DNA from: Gemmatimonadota bacterium
GTDB lineage: Bacteria; 4572-55; J002
DNA length: 46,618 nt
Assembly: GCA_003697105.1 (NCBI GenBank)
Contig: RFFQ01000025.1
Location: 1 to 46,618, forward strand
Direction of reading: 5' to 3'
Positions 11,501 to 46,495 of this stretch are shown one piece after another (within the stretch, counting starts at the first letter, position 1; the number at the start of each line of letters is the position of its first letter). The position numbers were made by a program, and so were the translations under genes. The notes beneath the pieces are model-generated. The model ran no database searches. It saw nothing but the letters and a program-made list of their open reading frames with translations, and was not told the origin of the DNA.

Positions 11501-14500
11501 CCGGTCAGCAATTGGTAGAACGTTACCCCCAAGGCGTAAATATCGACACCGTGATCGATGGTTTGTGCATTTAATACTTCGGGTGCCATGTAGAGGAGAG
11601 TCCCTTTGTGCCGCTGTTCCAGATGGTCTGCCAAATCTGCCAGACCAAAATCTAACACTTTGACCTGCTCGCCGGTCAACATGATATTTCCCGGCTTCAA
11701 ATCGCGGTGCAAAATTCCACGGCTATGGATGAACTGTACCGCCCGGCAGAGGTCAACCATGATGTCCAATGCTCGTTGCTGCCCGATTTGCCGTTGTTCT
11801 CGAAGCAGGTCAGATAAAGTCACCCCGTCAACGTATTCCATGATGATGAAATAATTTTCGGTGGTGCGATCCGCGCCAAAATCATACACGCGCACCAGAT
11901 TGGGATGGCGGAGGCGGGTCATCACTTCAAATTCTTTTTTGAAGGCTTCAACGGTTTTGTGGGTAAATGTATCCGGTTTGATGGCTTTTAGTACCATCTG
12001 TTGCCGTCCTCGCAAGAGGTCTTCCACGAGGACAACCGTCCCCATTTCACCTTCACCAAGAGCGTGAAGGCGCCGGTAGCGGTTAAGGGGCTGGTAAGGT
12101 GCAATCTGCGGTACTTTTTGGGCTAATTTTTCAATGTAACGCTGATACCCTCCGCCGGGATATTTTGCGGCGAGTTTTTTATACCGTTTCAAGGCACGGT
12201 TGCGATAGTGGTTGCGATGGGTCATCTCGTATAACTCATTATCGAGTTTGGCTTGATCGGGGGGATCGAGTTCGGCAAGGAGCGCTTCAAATTCATCCAA
12301 CACCGCGTGAGGCGTTTCACTTTGATAATATTTTAATTGGAGTTGTAATATCCGAATTTTTGTTATCATCTCTTCATGATTCGTCTCTGTTGCCCATGTG
12401 TAGGCTTGGGTAAGGAAGGGTTCAACTTCATCATATTTTTGCATTTTCAGCTTGAGGTCTGCTTTGCTGTAATACGTTCCGCAGAGGTAGTAACGGCGTG
12501 GTTTCGTATCATTTATGGCATCGCCATATTCGAGCGCCATATCCAGATATTTTTCCGCCTCCGCATAATTTTTCCACTGTTTGTAAATATCACTCATGCC
12601 ATTAAGTGCAATAATACAACTGAGTTTATTGCCTAATTCTTCTGAGATTTGCCATTTGCGCCGGTAACAGCGCAAGGCTTCCTCGTATTTACCCAAAGAA
12701 AGGTAAGCAACGCCCATATTTCCGCTCACCACACTAATGCTGCGTTTATCCCCCATTTCAAGGGTGAACTCCAGTTGCTGGTGATAGTACCGGAGAGCTT
12801 CTTCAAATTGATGTTGCATGATAAACACATTACCGCTGTTCCCCAATGCCATACACAAACTGGCTTTATCCCCAATTTTAGTAGCGATTTCGGCTTGTCG
12901 TTGGTAGTATTCCAGTGCTTTTTCATAATCTTTATGGTGCCAAAAATGAACATTGCCTATTGTGCCAATAGCGACGGCAATGCCGCGTTCATTCCCGATT
13001 TCTTCATCAATTTTGAGTTTACGGGTATAATATGCAAATCCCTCTTCAAATTGAGCCTGATCCAGATGCACATTCGCCACATTGCCGAGTGTTTCACTAA
13101 TGAGGTGTTTATCCTGTATTTTTTTGGCTATAGCCAGTCCCTGTTGGTACTCTGCCATTGCCTGCGGGTAGAGTTGTTGCCGAAAATAGACATTTCCGAT
13201 TTTATTATGAATTTTTCCAACCTCTGCCGGCGAACCCGTGCGCTCGTAGTAAGCAAGACATGCTTGTAATAGCTCCAATGCCGCCGGGTAATTGCCCTGA
13301 TTGTAAAAAATGGTTGCGACCCGCGTTTGGCTGGCGACAACCCACCGTTCATCGTTGAGCTGTTGGGCACGTTCTAGGGTCTGCTGGTAGAGTGCTAAAC
13401 TTTCGCTCCACTGTCCGGTACGTTGAAGAATATCCCCTTTTTGATGCAAAATCGCGATTTGCTCCGCTTCATCTAATTCCACTTTTTCCAATAATAATTC
13501 GTAATATTGAATCGCCTTTTGGTTGGCAAAATTGCGAACGGCTTTACTGGCAGATTTTTCCAGATAATACCGAATTTTCGCCTGATTGTTTGTTTGGCAG
13601 TAGTGGTATGCCAGTTCTTCGACGTGATTATCCAGATTGAGTTGGTAGATCAGTTCCAGTTGTTCCGCGATGTGGTGGTGGATTTGGGCTGGATTTGGTA
13701 TCTGATCCTGCACTACTTCCCGAATGCAGTCATGACTGGGACGGTATAGGATTGTCTGATCCACTTCTTCGCCGGTGATGAGTTCTTTATCTTCCAGAGC
13801 ACGCAAAATATCGATGGCTTCCGGCGGATTTTTGAGGATGAGGAGTTGTTCAAAAATTTCGAGCGGAATACTTTTGTTTACCAAAGCAAGAATTTGCAAG
13901 CCTTGCATTTCCGTAAAGCTTAAATTGAGCCGCTCCAACCGGTGTTTCACCAACATTTTTACATCATGGGAGAGTTCGGCTTCCGCGAACGCCGCGGTCA
14001 ACTCCCACGTTTTGCCTTGCCGGATAATGATCCCGCGTTCCACGAGAGATTTGACCAACTCTTGCAAGTAAAGTGGATTTCCTCCGACTTGCCGTTCAAT
14101 AGCCTCAACCGCCGCGAAAAGCGATTTTCCAACCCGGTCTTGACCGAAAATGGCGATCATGTATTGCTCAATGTCTGTTCGCCGGAACGGAGAAAGACGG
14201 ATAATTTGTAACCGCTGTTTTGCGTTAAGATTATCTATTAGGGGTTGAATATGGGGTAGTTCTTCTTCTTGACTACAGGCAAAAATACGGAAAAACCGCT
14301 CTGCAGGTTCTAAACGGGAGAGTTTAAATAGCAGTTCGCGCAATACTTCTTGTGTTCCCGGGTCTGCCGCGCCCAACCGGTGGAAAAGGAGTACATGGGT
14401 TTCCTGAGCTTCAATACTGTAATCGATCAGGAAACGGGTGATCGCCTCGATTAATATGCTTCGCTCAATTTGGCTATCTTGTACGGGTTTGGCAGCCATG

Positions 14501-36136: not shown

Positions 36137-37711
36137 TTAGGGCTTGGGATGCAAGGTAACTACTGGCACAATCATCTCTTCCATGGAGATGCCGCCGTGA
36201 TGGAAACTATCGGCGTACTGTCGCTTGTACTCCGAATAGTTGGTGGGATAAACAAAATAGTAATCTTCTTTAGCAAGGATATAGTTCATACTTTTGGAGG
36301 TTGCCGGAAGCATGTAATCTGTGGGGTTGGTGATTTTCACCGCGTCTTTTTGGTCGCAGTTGAGGTTGTTACCGTATTTATAGCGCAGGCTGGTTGAGGT
36401 ATCCCGGTTCCCATAAGCGGTAGTGGCTCGCCGTCCCATCACCGAGCCGTGATCTGTGGTCAGCACTACCGTTGCCCCTTGAGAGGCAATGATTTGGAAC
36501 ATCTCTCGAACCGGAGAGTGCTCAAACCACGCCCGCGTTAGTGCCCGAAATGCGGCTTCATCCGGGGCAATTTCCCTCATCACCTCCAGCTCTGAACGGG
36601 TATGGACAAGAATATCCATGAAGTTAAACACCATTGCGACAAGCGGCATCCGGTCAAACGAGGCAACCGTGCGGTTGGCTTCTTGGGATTCCTCGGTGGT
36701 AAACACCTTGATATATTTGGGTAACGGGTTGATTTTGACTTCCAAGTCCGCCAGTTGACGCTCCAATAACTGCCGTTCATGGCGGTTTTTACTGCCTTCT
36801 TCATCCCTGTTGCCATTGATGCCGTACCAATAGTGGGGATATTTTTCAGCAATTTCCAGCGGAAATAATCCGGAAAAGAGCGCATTGCGCGAGTAGGGTG
36901 TGGCGGTGGGCAAAATCGAATAGTAACTGTCACGCTCAATACTAAAGTATGGGTTCAAGAGCGGTTCGATCATCAGCCATTGATCGTAGCGCATACAGTC
37001 CATTACGATAAAATAGGTGGGTTTGCCGTGCCGCAAATGGGGTGCGACGTATTTTTTGACGACATCGACGGAGAGTGTCGGTGACGTCTCCCGCTGGTGA
37101 ATCCAGCCGGTATAGTGGCGTTCAATATAGCGGCAAAATTCATGGTTGCTTTCGTTCAGATTACTCTGGTGCATGGTTTTCAAATCGCTATCTTTGTAGT
37201 GATCCAGTTCCACATCCCATTCACACAGCCAATGGTATAACGCGATCCAATCTTCCGGCGTCATGGGACCCATGCGCCGGGCTTGCCACTGGGCAAATTC
37301 GCGGGCATAGTCCTGCCCCAGACGATTTTCCCGGATCGTCCGGGATTCTAATGTCCGCTTACAGGCACTTAAAATTTGGCTCGGATTGACCGGCTTGGTC
37401 AGATAGTCATCGATTCGCTTCCCGATAGCTTCATCCATCAGATGTTCTTCTTCATTTTTAGTGATCATGATGATCGGGATATTGGGGTCATAATTTTTAA
37501 TTTCGGTTAATGTGGTTAAGCCATCTTTACCGGGCATCATTTCGTCCAGTAGCACCAAATCGTAGCGGTTTTGTTCAACGAGGGCAATCGCATCATCTCC
37601 GTTGGTCACTGGCGTGACATCATACCCTTTTGCTTTCAAAAAATGAATATGCGCCTTTAATTGATCGATTTCATCGTCTGCCCAGATAATTCGCTTGGAT
37701 TGCAATTTCAT
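36137..37711 (-). CDS. porX: PorX-type response regulator with PglZ domain
   Basis: 524 residues. The receiver (1-120) has D12-D13, phosphoacceptor D56 in LVLLDEMMPG and K106/K107 region DYLTKP. The rest is an alkaline-phosphatase-superfamily PglZ domain with metal ligands D238 (VMDCMRYDQW), T271 (ATPYSRNALFSG), D366/H370 (FMDILVHTRS), D420-H421 (TTDHGS) and a late HHGG. P. gingivalis PorX has this length and layout, controls T9SS genes and hydrolyses cyclic and linear oligonucleotides. The secreted protease at 43642-46392 carries a T9SS sorting tail, in line with this role. It follows a small gene by 12 bp. Confidence 0.92.
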   Translation of the reverse strand: MKLQSKRIIWADDEIDQLKAHIHFLKAKGYDVTPVTNGDDAIALVEQNRYDLVLLDEMMPGKDGLTTLTEIKNYDPNIPIIMITKNEEEHLMDEAIGKRIDDYLTKPVNPSQILSACKRTLESRTIRENRLGQDYAREFAQWQARRMGPMTPEDWIALYHWLCEWDVELDHYKDSDLKTMHQSNLNESNHEFCRYIERHYTGWIHQRETSPTLSVDVVKKYVAPHLRHGKPTYFIVMDCMRYDQWLMIEPLLNPYFSIERDSYYSILPTATPYSRNALFSGLFPLEIAEKYPHYWYGINGNRDEEGSKNRHERQLLERQLADLEVKINPLPKYIKVFTTEESQEANRTVASFDRMPLVAMVFNFMDILVHTRSELEVMREIAPDEAAFRALTRAWFEHSPVREMFQIIASQGATVVLTTDHGSVMGRRATTAYGNRDTSTSLRYKYGNNLNCDQKDAVKITNPTDYMLPATSKSMNYILAKEDYYFVYPTNYSEYKRQYADSFHHGGISMEEMIVPVVTLHPKP

Positions 37712-40532: not shown

Positions 40533-42080
40533 ATGGCACGTATTCATGAATTTCAAGGCAAAGCATTGCTCAAACAGCATAAGATTTCCGTTCCCCATGG
40601 ACGAGCGGCACGCACGCCGGATGAGGTGTACCAGATTGCTCTGGAGATTGGCAAGCCGGTCGTCATTAAAGCACAAGCATGGACCACCGGCCGGGCAGGG
40701 CTGGGGCTGATCCAATTTGCGGATACGCCGGATGAGGCAAAATCAATCGCAGAAAGTCTGTTTGGCCAGATTGTCAAAGGTTTTCCGGTGGAAGTTTTGC
40801 TGGTGGAAGAAAAAATCCGTATTGCTCAGGAATTTTACGCCGGTGTCATCATTGATGATAAAAATGCTTGCCCGCTGATGATTTTCAGCTCCAAGGGCGG
40901 TACCGGCATTGAAGAAATTGCAGCAAAACATCCGGACAAGGTTGCCCAATACCAAATTGACATCATTGAAGGCTTGCGGGATTTTGAGGCACGTGACCTT
41001 ATCCGTCGAACTGGTATCCACGGTAAGTTGCAAATGAAACTGGCAAATGTGCTGGTTCAATTGTACCAAACCGCTCGGGATCACGAAGCCCGTTCTGCCG
41101 AGATCAACCCCTTGGTTGTCTTGGAAGATGGGGCGATCCTAGCCGCGGATTGCCGGATAACCGTTGATGACTATGCCGTATTTCGCCATCCTGAATTGGG
41201 AATTGATGTTGCGCGAGAGTTTGGCCATCCCCCGTCAGAATTAGACTTGATCGCGTACAATGTAGAGAAAAATGACTATCGCGGCACCTTTTACTTTGTT
41301 CAGATGGAGACGGGATTTCAAGCCGGAGAAAAATACATTGGTTTTCATGGCGCCGGTGGTGGTGGTTCCATGATGAGCATGGATGCCGTGACCCGCAAAG
41401 GATATAAAATTGCCAATTTTACGGATACCAGCGGCAACCCGCCCGCATCAAAGGTTTACCGTGCCGCGAAAATTATCCTCGCGCAAAAAGGTATTGATGG
41501 CTATTTTGGCAGTGGCTCTGGTGTTGCCAGTCAAGAGCAGTTTCATTCCGCACGAGGATTGGTCAAGGCATTTCGGGAGGAACAGCTTTCCATCCCTGCC
41601 GTGATCCGGTTAGGCGGTAATGCCGAAGATAAAGCGGTCGAAATTCTGGAAACATACACGAAAGATTTACCGGCACCGGTAGAGGGTTATAAAAAAGATG
41701 ATTCCGTTGATTTTTGCGCCGAGCGCTTTGACCAGTTGGTTCAACAGGTGAAAGAACAGGGCTTGAAACCTGCCACTCCTTTCCAAAAACCCGAAGCAAA
41801 AGAACCATACGTTTTCCAAACCCTAACCGGATCGGTAACATTTGATTATGCTTTATGCGCCGGTTGTGAATCCCATGCGTGTGTAGAACAGTGTGTCCCG
41901 CAGATTTTAAAGATCGATGAACACGGTTTGCCGGTACTGGCGATCTCTATTGAAGAGGCGGCAAAAGGTAAATGTACCGAGTGCCTCGCTTGTGAAATCG
42001 AATGCTATTTTCACGGCAACAAGGGCGGTTATGTGGATTTACCCATCCCCGGCTTGGAAGAATACCGCCGGAAACAATGA
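40533..42080 (+). CDS. SucC-like acyl-CoA synthetase fused to di-cluster ferredoxin domain
   Basis: 515 residues. Residues 1-390 are a succinyl-CoA synthetase beta-type subunit: ATP-grasp (HEFQGKALLKQH, KAQAWTTGRAGLGL, SAEINPLVV) and the CoA-ligase flavodoxin-like domain (HGAGGGGSMMSMDAV, DGYFGSGSGVASQEQ, IPAVIRLGGNAEDKAVEIL). A linker leads to a ferredoxin-like tail with eight cysteines: C442, C445, C450, C454 and C481, C484, C487, C491, enough for two 4Fe-4S clusters. Ordinary SucC is about 390 residues with no cluster. No sucD-type alpha subunit lies nearby, and alpha carries the phosphohistidine, so a partner elsewhere is expected. It may link a ferredoxin-dependent oxoacid oxidoreductase to acyl-CoA formation, but substrate and redox role are unknown. 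Confidence 0.9.
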   Translation: MARIHEFQGKALLKQHKISVPHGRAARTPDEVYQIALEIGKPVVIKAQAWTTGRAGLGLIQFADTPDEAKSIAESLFGQIVKGFPVEVLLVEEKIRIAQEFYAGVIIDDKNACPLMIFSSKGGTGIEEIAAKHPDKVAQYQIDIIEGLRDFEARDLIRRTGIHGKLQMKLANVLVQLYQTARDHEARSAEINPLVVLEDGAILAADCRITVDDYAVFRHPELGIDVAREFGHPPSELDLIAYNVEKNDYRGTFYFVQMETGFQAGEKYIGFHGAGGGGSMMSMDAVTRKGYKIANFTDTSGNPPASKVYRAAKIILAQKGIDGYFGSGSGVASQEQFHSARGLVKAFREEQLSIPAVIRLGGNAEDKAVEILETYTKDLPAPVEGYKKDDSVDFCAERFDQLVQQVKEQGLKPATPFQKPEAKEPYVFQTLTGSVTFDYALCAGCESHACVEQCVPQILKIDEHGLPVLAISIEEAAKGKCTECLACEIECYFHGNKGGYVDLPIPGLEEYRRKQ

Positions 42081-43641: not shown

Positions 43642-46392
43642 CTACTTCAACAGCACCATCCGGCGCATTTGGGAAAATTCACCGGAAGTCAACTGGTAGT
43701 AGTAAATTCCGCTTGCCAACGGACGCTGGTTATCTTGGCGACCGTTCCATTCCACTTGATACGACCCTGCCGGTTGTTCGTCATCAACCAATGTTCGGAC
43801 TAACTTTCCGCTGCCATCATAAACTTTGAGCGAGACGTGTCCCGTGTTGGGGATTTCGTAGGTGATTATTGTGAATGGATTAAATGGGTTCGGATAATTT
43901 TGGTGCAAAGCGTAACGCCGAGGTGTATGGATTGTTGTCTGTTCGGCTTCTACTCCCACCGTGATTTCTTCGCCGTAGAGAATCATGTTATCGATAAACC
44001 ATCCCCGCTCGGTATCGTTAGTAGAAGCAAACCGGAAACGAAATTGAACATCTTCGCCCATGTAATCCATCAGCGGGAATTCGACCCGTAGCCAACCATC
44101 GGTCTCTCCGGTGAAGCCGGCTTGCCCGTTTAACCCCACCACCGATTGATCCGGATAACCGCCATCCGGTTCAATGAGATTCCAGGTGGTGCCGGCATCG
44201 GTAGAAATGGCTACGTTGCCACCGTCCCACCCTTCAGACATTTCATACCACGTATAAAAAACCAAGCGGGCATCATCAACAATCTGCAACCGGTAAGTGG
44301 GGGTGAATAAATCGTACCGGCGTTGGGGTTCATATAGGTCATCTAAATCTGTGCCCCATACATTGACGCCACTGTAGGCGTAGGCGGGTCCGCCACTTTC
44401 TTGCGGTTCTCCCCATTCCCACTCGCTCCGGTTCCCGCTAGGTACGAAATTTTCATCGCTAGTCTCGAAACTTCGTACAAACGTGAGTTCCATATTGTGT
44501 TCCACTTCACCATTAGCCGGTACAAAAATATGGATTTCCTGCGGGTCATGATCGGGAGCATACACCCAAAATGTATATTCATAATCGCCGGCAAGACTGA
44601 CGTTATAATTTCCTTCTGCATCGGTATAAAAGGGATCGACCGGTACGCCAATGGGGGTGATTTCGACTCCCTCCAACGGATACCCGCGCACGGAGGTAAT
44701 CGTTCCGTGAAAAATGCCTTGTGGGCGGGCATCCAGTTGAATATCGACCATAACGGTCTCTTCAGAGGCGACGGTGTAGCTTATCTCGGAGATAAAATCA
44801 TAATATCCGAACCGTTCGGCACTGATAATATATTCCCCCGGTTGGACGGAAAGATGGTAAAATCCTTCCATATCGGAGAGGGTTTCAAAATTGGTATCCT
44901 CGATGTAAACTCGGGTTTCGCGCAAGGTTTCACCGCTTTCGGCATCGGTAACGGTGCCTTCAAATGCGGCGAGGCGGGCGAACGTTTCCATGACCGCGGC
45001 ATAGGCATCAATAACACCGAAACCGAAGGTATTATCTTCCCCCGGTGTGCCCTGATCGACTGCGGTGACCATCAGAATATCCTTCATTTCGTCCACTTCC
45101 AGATTGGGGTCTACTTGACGTAACAAGGCGCAAACTCCGGTGACATGCGGTGCTGCCATAGAGGTACCGCTCATCTGCCCGTAACTGCCGCCCGGCAAGG
45201 TGGAGCGGATGTCAACGCCCGGAGCAGAGACTTCCGGCTTGATCGTCTCGTTATCGCAATCAGAGGGTCCCCGGCTACTAAAGTTGGCAATCGGGTACGG
45301 CGGGCTACTGTGACCATTCACGGCACCCACGGAGAAAACCGTATAAGGACTCATGATCTGATTAGGCGGGTTGCCGATAGTGGCAGAACCGGGACCTTCA
45401 TTTCCGGCGGCAAAAATAACGGCACATCCGCCGGCTTCGCAGATTTCAATGGCTTCGTTGAATAAATTTTGGCAGTCATAACTGGCATTATGAAACCGCC
45501 ACGAGTTATTGACCGCGTCCGGCACATCATCAATGGTTTCCGGGTCACCGTCGGGGTCCGCCAGCCATTCAAAACTATCGATGTAGTGCCAAGTGGTAAA
45601 TTGCATGGGTAATCCGGCGGCAATCCATTCTGCCGCCCATGCCACCCCGACCGTATCGTTTGCGCTAGCGCCACATTCTGTACCCATGACGTGTGTGCCA
45701 TGACTCCCGCTGATCGGCTCCGGAAATTGGCTGTTGGGTGCGGTCGGTGCAAACCAACATTCTTCCCACGGTTCGTGCACGCCGCGCCAGCGATCGGCTA
45801 ATGCCGGGTGATTACCATCGACCCCGGAATCCATGTTTGATATGAGCCGCCCTTCACCGGTGATACCCATTGCCCAACATTGGGGCGCATTGATCACCCG
45901 CAAGCCGGGTTCGACACTCCGCAAACTTGACCCCTCCTGCCGGATTTCTACCGGCTCATTGATACGGGCTTCGTAATTGATGTGTAACATACGCACGTCG
46001 GTACGATCTGCCAGTTCATATACCACTGACTTTTGCACTTCGGCAAAAATGGCATTGGTGATCCAAAATTGCTCAAACCGCCGGACCCGGTCTTCACCAG
46101 ACCGTTGGGCGAGTAGGTCAGCAACTTCCGCCTGAGACCGCTGTGCCCACTCCTGCGCCGCCGTGATGACCTCATAATGTCGTTGTTGGCGAGTGGCGCG
46201 GCGTAATTTAAGCTCGCGATCCAGCGCGTGAATATCCAGCTTATCTGCCATTTCAATCCCGATGACTATAAAATCCGTTTCAGAAAGTTGATCCAGTTGG
46301 GCTTGTAATGGTTCGGAAATTGTACCGCTAAATACTGGTGGAATCAGACTAAGGCTAAGCAGCAATGCAAAACACATAGAAAGGTAACGCAT
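43642..46392 (-). CDS. Secreted subtilisin-like protease with T9SS sorting domain
   Basis: 916 residues from the ATG at 46392, with AAGGAG 10 bases ahead. Signal peptide (1-22), propeptide-like region (about 30-150), S8 catalytic domain (about 175-450) with D188 (SNMDSGVDG), H231 (GSHGTHVMG), oxyanion N331 (AAGNEG) and S411 (SGTSMAAPHV). Then two carboxypeptidase-regulatory-like domains (about 476-637), a MAM/immune-inhibitor-like jellyroll (about 640-808) and a T9SS type A tail (about 826-916; NYPNPFNP, SLKVYDGSGKLV, GIYYYQL). It is exported by Sec and then across the outer membrane by T9SS. No T9SS channel genes lie in the window, but PorX does. Confidence 0.95.
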   Translation of the reverse strand: MRYLSMCFALLLSLSLIPPVFSGTISEPLQAQLDQLSETDFIVIGIEMADKLDIHALDRELKLRRATRQQRHYEVITAAQEWAQRSQAEVADLLAQRSGEDRVRRFEQFWITNAIFAEVQKSVVYELADRTDVRMLHINYEARINEPVEIRQEGSSLRSVEPGLRVINAPQCWAMGITGEGRLISNMDSGVDGNHPALADRWRGVHEPWEECWFAPTAPNSQFPEPISGSHGTHVMGTECGASANDTVGVAWAAEWIAAGLPMQFTTWHYIDSFEWLADPDGDPETIDDVPDAVNNSWRFHNASYDCQNLFNEAIEICEAGGCAVIFAAGNEGPGSATIGNPPNQIMSPYTVFSVGAVNGHSSPPYPIANFSSRGPSDCDNETIKPEVSAPGVDIRSTLPGGSYGQMSGTSMAAPHVTGVCALLRQVDPNLEVDEMKDILMVTAVDQGTPGEDNTFGFGVIDAYAAVMETFARLAAFEGTVTDAESGETLRETRVYIEDTNFETLSDMEGFYHLSVQPGEYIISAERFGYYDFISEISYTVASEETVMVDIQLDARPQGIFHGTITSVRGYPLEGVEITPIGVPVDPFYTDAEGNYNVSLAGDYEYTFWVYAPDHDPQEIHIFVPANGEVEHNMELTFVRSFETSDENFVPSGNRSEWEWGEPQESGGPAYAYSGVNVWGTDLDDLYEPQRRYDLFTPTYRLQIVDDARLVFYTWYEMSEGWDGGNVAISTDAGTTWNLIEPDGGYPDQSVVGLNGQAGFTGETDGWLRVEFPLMDYMGEDVQFRFRFASTNDTERGWFIDNMILYGEEITVGVEAEQTTIHTPRRYALHQNYPNPFNPFTIITYEIPNTGHVSLKVYDGSGKLVRTLVDDEQPAGSYQVEWNGRQDNQRPLASGIYYYQLTSGEFSQMRRMVLLK

Positions 46393-46495
46393 AACAGACT
46401 CCTTAAATGGTTGAGGGGGTGAAATAAGGGGAAAATGACCGGCGGATTGGGGACGAAACACCCGCCGTTCCTCCGCGAGATGTAGGGAAGAGGTC

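Follow-up and report, generated by a model that had tools for sequence, protein, structure and literature searches.

A candidate subtype of citryl-CoA synthetase/citryl-CoA lyase with a ferredoxin-like tail on its large subunit

Introduction

Enzymes that cleave citrate are markers of the reductive tricarboxylic acid (TCA) cycle and are relevant to how citrate synthase arose. ATP-citrate lyase is said, after work by Moller et al. in 1987, to act in acetate oxidation with ATP formation in Desulfobacter postgatei. Two described systems lie close to the genes reported here. CcsA/CcsB and Ccl of Hydrogenobacter thermophilus (6hxq, 6hxp) are encoded, as in our family, by SucC-like, SucD-like and stand-alone lyase genes. 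ATP-citrate lyase (AclA/AclB, 6hxj; human ACLY) would carry out the same chemistry and has the SGG and GGGxS...SGNP motifs in common with our family, but lacks the ferredoxin tail that the large subunit described below possesses.

Thiel et al. 2017 (PMC5459899) proposed a citrate-cleaving function for Planctomycete genes that bear sucC, sucD and citrate synthase annotations. The enzymes are placed there between the CCS/CCL of Aquificae and type II ACL, the genes being separate in OTU-14 and the alpha and lyase genes being fused in its relative DG_20. That proposal is for Planctomycetes only, the passages of the paper that present these genes make no mention of an Fe-S tail, and our likening of OTU-14 to the present family follows its description there. 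In isotope work on T. hugenholtzii, glycolysis was reported to be uncoupled from the TCA cycle for reasons left unexplained (PMC8129789), a finding to which an enzyme of this kind might be relevant. We searched the literature for citryl-CoA or ATP-citrate enzymes bearing a ferredoxin domain and found nothing relevant: citrate-splitting enzymes are an established class, but no account of one with a ferredoxin-like tail came to light.

Here we describe a gene family in which a citryl-CoA synthetase-like subunit is predicted to carry such a tail. To our knowledge this would be the first iron-sulfur module on this class of enzyme.

Results

A large subunit with a ferredoxin-like tail

The window, by which we mean the whole 46,618-nucleotide stretch of Gemmatimonadota DNA that was analysed (contig RFFQ01000025.1), contains an intact open reading frame of 515 amino acids at 40533-42080 (+) that starts with ATG and has no internal stops. 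Its parts are as follows.

40533..42080, +: predicted citryl-CoA synthetase-like large (beta) subunit of 515 aa, ending in a ferredoxin-like domain
40542..41120, +: nucleotide-binding ATP-grasp domain (Pfam ATP-grasp_2), residues 4-196
41334..41567, +: core of the CoA-ligase/substrate domain, residues 268-345, GAGGGGSMMSMDA...ANFTDTSGNPPASKVYRAAKIIL (matches 6hxq_B)
41748..41807, +: linker with little conservation (mean majority fraction 0.31), residues 406-425
41808..42047, +: ferredoxin-like tail, residues 426-505 (pLDDT about 90-97 in the model)
41856..41894, +: cysteine set 1, C442-x2-C445-x4-C450-x3-C454
41973..42005, +: cysteine set 2, C481-x2-C484-x2-C487-x3-C491

A sequence-only reading of the gene had described a SucC-type ATP-grasp/CoA-ligase part followed by two four-cysteine sets. 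The first part was borne out by Pfam ATP-grasp_2 (171.5 bits, residues 4-196) and by the top solved-structure match, Thermus aquaticus SucC (245.8 bits, residues 3-375); in this profile search the subunit is nearer overall to SucC than to CcsA (245.8 versus 120.3 bits). K46, R54, E100, E190 and N192, together with D206 just past the ATP-grasp domain, are invariant among 66 homologues. An AlphaFold2 model made with 51 homologues as input had a mean pLDDT of 91.9 (around 90-97 in the tail), and the best 50 matches in a fold search with this model were SucC/ACL-type chains only.

The eight tail cysteines sit exactly at the positions first noted, 442/445/450/454 and 481/484/487/491, and the beta subunit and the two-cluster ferredoxin-like part form one conserved unit, colinear end to end in homologues. 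The fusion would have been in doubt had homologues never kept these cysteines, or had a frameshift or assembly join lain between residues 390 and 440. The full set is present in 41 of the 66 full-length homologues, and homologues cross the junction in a single frame; chance or an assembly join is therefore excluded, and a frameshift as the origin of the tail is ruled out by the same collinear homologues.

Searching the tail with Fer4 profiles, as the sequence-only reading had suggested, gave a divided answer. Fer4_9 matched all 17 tails scanned (best E 1.9e-6), but the window tail scored 20.9 bits, under the Pfam cut-off of 27, and single tails are sub-threshold 4Fe-4S dicluster domains that do not reach the Pfam Fer4 cut-offs. 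Solved-structure profile matches to the tail were marginal (HycB4 and a 2-oxoglutarate:acceptor oxidoreductase subunit, best E 0.008), and a named ferredoxin type was rejected on this ground. Because these matches are marginal and the fold search returned SucC/ACL-type chains, we claim no specific ferredoxin ancestor. We infer from sequence that in most lineages the tail is a ferredoxin-like domain binding two [4Fe-4S] clusters.

Distribution of the family and a cysteine-poor clade

One scan of GTDB genomes found 71 loci encoding relatives, with 46-69% identity in the best segment and nearly all aligning over the full length. They occur in KSB1, Calditrichota, Zixibacteria, Cloacimonadota, Fidelibacterota and Acidobacteriota, and further in Chloroflexota (Anaerolineae, Thermoflexia), Coatesbacteria, Planctomycetota and others. 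In a tree built from the first 400 residues the tailed family is one clade with support of 100/100, far from SucC, on a stem of 1.76 in a tree whose program warned of long branches.

The 25 of 66 homologues without the full cysteine set form a single clade (100/99), nearly all from Planctomycetota and mostly from Phycisphaerales; its members retain no more than three of the eight cysteines, typically C442, C487 and C491. A model of one member retains the strand and helix order of the tail with pLDDT around 93; with its pTM of 0.59 and low TM-scores in the fold search, the model adds little beyond the secondary structure of the tail. Since this clade has lost most of the cysteines and yet keeps the domain, the clusters are dispensable there, and the loss amounts to a natural experiment on the role of the tail.

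Operon in relatives and scattered partners in the window genome

No alpha subunit adjoins the gene in the window, as had been noted, but this does not hold for the family, where the alpha gene lies just downstream, within 2.8 kb in 62 of the 68 loci having more than 1 kb of room (a table count; a scripted tally gave 49, lower because a strict start-distance rule was used). The order in relatives is beta, SucD-like alpha with CoA_binding and Ligase_CoA domains, citryl-CoA lyase and an HD-domain protein, followed by aconitase/homoaconitase-type, IDH-type or MmgE/PrpD genes. The lyase gene is downstream in 49 of the 57 loci with more than 2 kb of room (table count), and aconitase/IDH/PrpD genes adjoin the operon in 26/35 loci with room. 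The operon aconitase passes the homoaconitase cut-off (TIGR00139), and the IDH-like gene scores highest with homoisocitrate dehydrogenase models, though under their cut-offs. At three loci (L083, L086, L093) a single fused gene encodes alpha and lyase, as in AclA and as described for DG_20, this counterpart of the ACL form being limited to some Planctomycetota. The HD-domain protein and the aconitase/IDH genes set the operon apart from the H. thermophilus arrangement.

Several neighbours recur in parts of the family. The HD-domain protein is small, about 180-190 aa (for example L035 11320-11853), and is a frequent operon member. A methylmalonyl-CoA mutase large-subunit gene lies upstream of the operon in six Anaerolineae/Thermoflexia loci (L050, L059, L060, L066, L069, L101). 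At one locus (L057 2918-7924) two ETF-alpha-type genes, one of them with ferredoxin domains at its N-terminus, and a FAD/ferredoxin oxidoreductase gene are directly upstream of the tailed beta gene. In Phycisphaerales (L079 713-3971 and several other loci) histidine ammonia-lyase and urocanase genes are divergently upstream, and a link between histidine/glutamate breakdown and the citrate gene set is possible.

In the window genome the alpha (L109 10842-11741) and lyase (11845-12618) genes are side by side on contig 101, as separate genes unlike the fused AclA, so that the set does not have the AclAB make-up of a fused SucD-lyase AclA plus AclB. An HD homologue (L121 3334-3909) and an IDH-like gene are on contig 7, where a histidine ammonia-lyase gene (L121 7012-8628) comes after the latter, and a homoaconitase-type aconitase is on contig 29. 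Elsewhere in this genome are canonical sucC (C83) and sucD (C60) genes, a citrate synthase gene adjoining NADP-IDH (C135) and a frame of 899 aa that encodes an aconitase (C179). With its partners on several contigs, the citrate set is thus complete but scattered, parallel to the ordinary TCA set. In genome G001, which has the beta gene, neither an alpha nor a lyase gene of this type was found.

Substrate loops and lyase point to citryl-CoA

Over residues 268-345 the beta subunit matches the large subunit of H. thermophilus citryl-CoA synthetase, sharing with CcsA the GGGGS, ANFTD and GNPPA loop (GNPPAxKxYxxxKIIL in full), and GGGGS and GNP are conserved across the tailed family, as in the citrate loop of 6hxq_B. 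The family loops read GAGGGGS...SGNPP in beta and SRSGG in alpha, unlike the GNGAG...GGG of Thermus-type SucC and the SRSGT of the SucD genes tested, neither of which was found in the tailed family. Scores against the curated SucC models are also low (NF001913, 248.3 versus 370 bits; TIGR01016, 238.3 versus 375.6). The succinyl-CoA synthetase identity first proposed was not upheld, given these citryl-CoA-type loops and the separate canonical sucC gene. What the family shares with SucCD is the fold and the catalytic elements of the ATP-grasp domain and the His loop; it differs in falling below the NCBIfam sucC cut-offs, in its substrate loops, in its lyase partner and in its ferredoxin tail.

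The alpha subunit has an active-site histidine loop, FSHAGA, whose H256 is conserved across 97% or more of 63 sequences. The lyase passes the NCBIfam citryl-CoA lyase model NF004869 at about 270 bits (270.2-270.8, cut-off 212). Among solved structures it best matches the citryl-CoA lyase of H. thermophilus (201 bits, runner-up 75), to which it is 45% identical, and H64, H99, H147, R155, D196, R221 and R240 are conserved among 52 lyases. The roles that we take these beta, alpha and lyase residues to have are those known from the SucCD and citrate synthase families.

The family is distinct from each described form. Its beta and alpha subunits score nearer to SucC/SucD than to the Ccs subunits. 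The tailed beta is 515 aa long, versus 429 aa for the solved CcsA chain, and we know of no ferredoxin tail on CcsA. Identity to the ATP-citrate lyase-like AclB/AclA proteins of a Thermoflexus MAG (L124) is 22% for beta and 27% for the lyase.

The motif pair GGGxS...GNP (beta) and SGG (alpha) also occurs in those L124 genes and in a tail-less family (L017, L029). This second SucC/SucD-like ligase family (L017 G049, L029 G043, L019, L018) has GGGGAS...GGNP and SRSGG; at L017 a citryl-CoA lyase-like gene follows it, and CaiB-type CoA-transferase and enoyl-CoA hydratase-like genes lie close to it at L019.

Genomes in which no ordinary citrate synthase was found

Full-length citrate synthase was not found in 14 of the 16 Chloroflexota genomes searched, and 12 of those 14 have the lyase type (both by our own count); most genomes of this kind are draft MAGs, and the search was for the citrate-synthase fold, as distinct from Re-citrate synthase. 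In four Anaerolineae genomes (G120, G127, G130, G140) all citrate-synthase-fold, aconitase-family and Iso_dh matches are on the operon contig. On the closed Coatesbacteria chromosome G125 no citrate synthase was found except the lyase adjoining the tailed beta gene; an aconitase-IDH pair is at 816-819 kb. Several Anaerolineae MAGs and G125 thus yielded no citrate-synthase-fold gene besides the lyase, and there the complex seems to be the sole citrate enzyme of this kind. Because no other citrate-synthase-fold gene was found in the four Anaerolineae/Chloroflexota MAGs and G125, the gene set probably serves citrate there, and these genomes are the strongest evidence for citrate as the substrate.

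The Thermoflexus MAG (G117), one of the Chloroflexota genomes with the lyase type, has both the tailed operon and ATP-citrate lyase-like genes encoding an AclA of 609 aa and an AclB of 422 aa (L124 3727-6828). Since the two coexist, they may do different jobs.

Discussion

We consider it probable, at roughly three chances in four, that these genes encode a new Fe-S-tailed subtype of citryl-CoA synthetase/citryl-CoA lyase, citrate-splitting or citrate-making, in which the tail is non-catalytic. In the proposed scheme the beta and SucD-like alpha subunits would convert citrate, ATP and CoA to citryl-CoA, ADP and Pi, the ATP-grasp domain phosphorylating the histidine of the alpha-subunit FSHAGA loop and the GGGGS/GNPPA and SRSGG loops holding citrate; two histidines and an aspartate of the lyase would then split citryl-CoA into acetyl-CoA and oxaloacetate. 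As the reaction is reversible in principle, the complex could supply acetyl-CoA by splitting citrate, or it could run towards citrate and conserve ATP. Cleavage is more likely in the window organism because it has a citrate synthase of its own. A more speculative proposal, which we regard as unlikely, is that in bacteria without ordinary citrate synthase the complex makes citrate and ATP, with the tail sensing redox state and setting the direction.

The tail most probably serves to hold the complex together or to dock partners, and its clusters would add redox or oxygen sensitivity. The clusters lie outside the reaction chemistry, to judge from a whole clade that lost the cysteines and kept the domain; since there is in addition no redox step and no POR_N linkage, a docking/structural or redox-regulatory role is likeliest and electron delivery unlikely. 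The clusters might act as a switch that responds to redox state or oxygen and sets rate or direction, and so be more than purely structural; this is compatible with the citryl-CoA synthetase/lyase assignment, and we hold it as a tentative possibility. The invariance of the eight cysteines in 41 sequences from many phyla, their loss as a group in one domain-keeping clade, and the ETF and FAD/ferredoxin oxidoreductase genes upstream in two Chloroflexota loci are consistent with a switch; the reaction itself, however, is non-redox, and a structural cluster role explains the same conservation.

The sequence-only reading had instead suggested a SucC beta subunit, with the ferredoxin tail as a link between a ferredoxin-using step, such as an oxoacid:ferredoxin oxidoreductase, and substrate-level phosphorylation. 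In overall fold and in its best structural match the protein is indeed SucC-like, and POR_N-family genes are present in 31 of 32 genomes, but the POR_N matches listed are on other contigs or, in closed genomes, at least about 40 kb away. A KorAB linkage was rejected because none among the matches listed adjoins. Of the neighbours suggested in that reading, sucD-like and korAB-like, the sucD-like one stood, and the other conserved partner is a citryl-CoA lyase. With canonical sucC and sucD in the same genome, loops unlike those of SucC and most cysteines lost in one clade, such coupling is highly improbable. We also consider it quite unlikely that the complex acts on 2-methylcitrate or homocitrate, as part of a parallel pathway together with its neighbours of aconitase, PrpD and homoisocitrate dehydrogenase type. 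The parallel canonical citrate synthase, aconitase and IDH of the window organism leave room for such a substrate, and the MmgE/PrpD neighbours, the model scores of the operon aconitase and IDH-like genes and the methylmalonyl-CoA mutase gene upstream in some Anaerolineae fit it. The substrate loop, however, matches citryl-CoA synthetase, the lyase retains the Ccl residues, and the genomes in which the search turned up no citrate-synthase-fold gene but this lyase also speak against it.

If the citryl-CoA assignment is right, citrate-cleaving or ATP-forming citrate-making capacity is hidden in Chloroflexota, KSB1, Calditrichota, Zixibacteria and Planctomycetota, the tailed subtype falling below the curated NCBIfam sucC models, and TCA-cycle reconstructions would change for genomes seemingly without citrate synthase.

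Two other genes in the window were noted in passing. At 36137-37711 (-) a response-regulator receiver is followed by a long C-terminal domain, a product that presumably resembles PorX-type regulators of type IX secretion, and the S8-like protease encoded at 43642-46461 has a sorting-like segment at its C-terminus.
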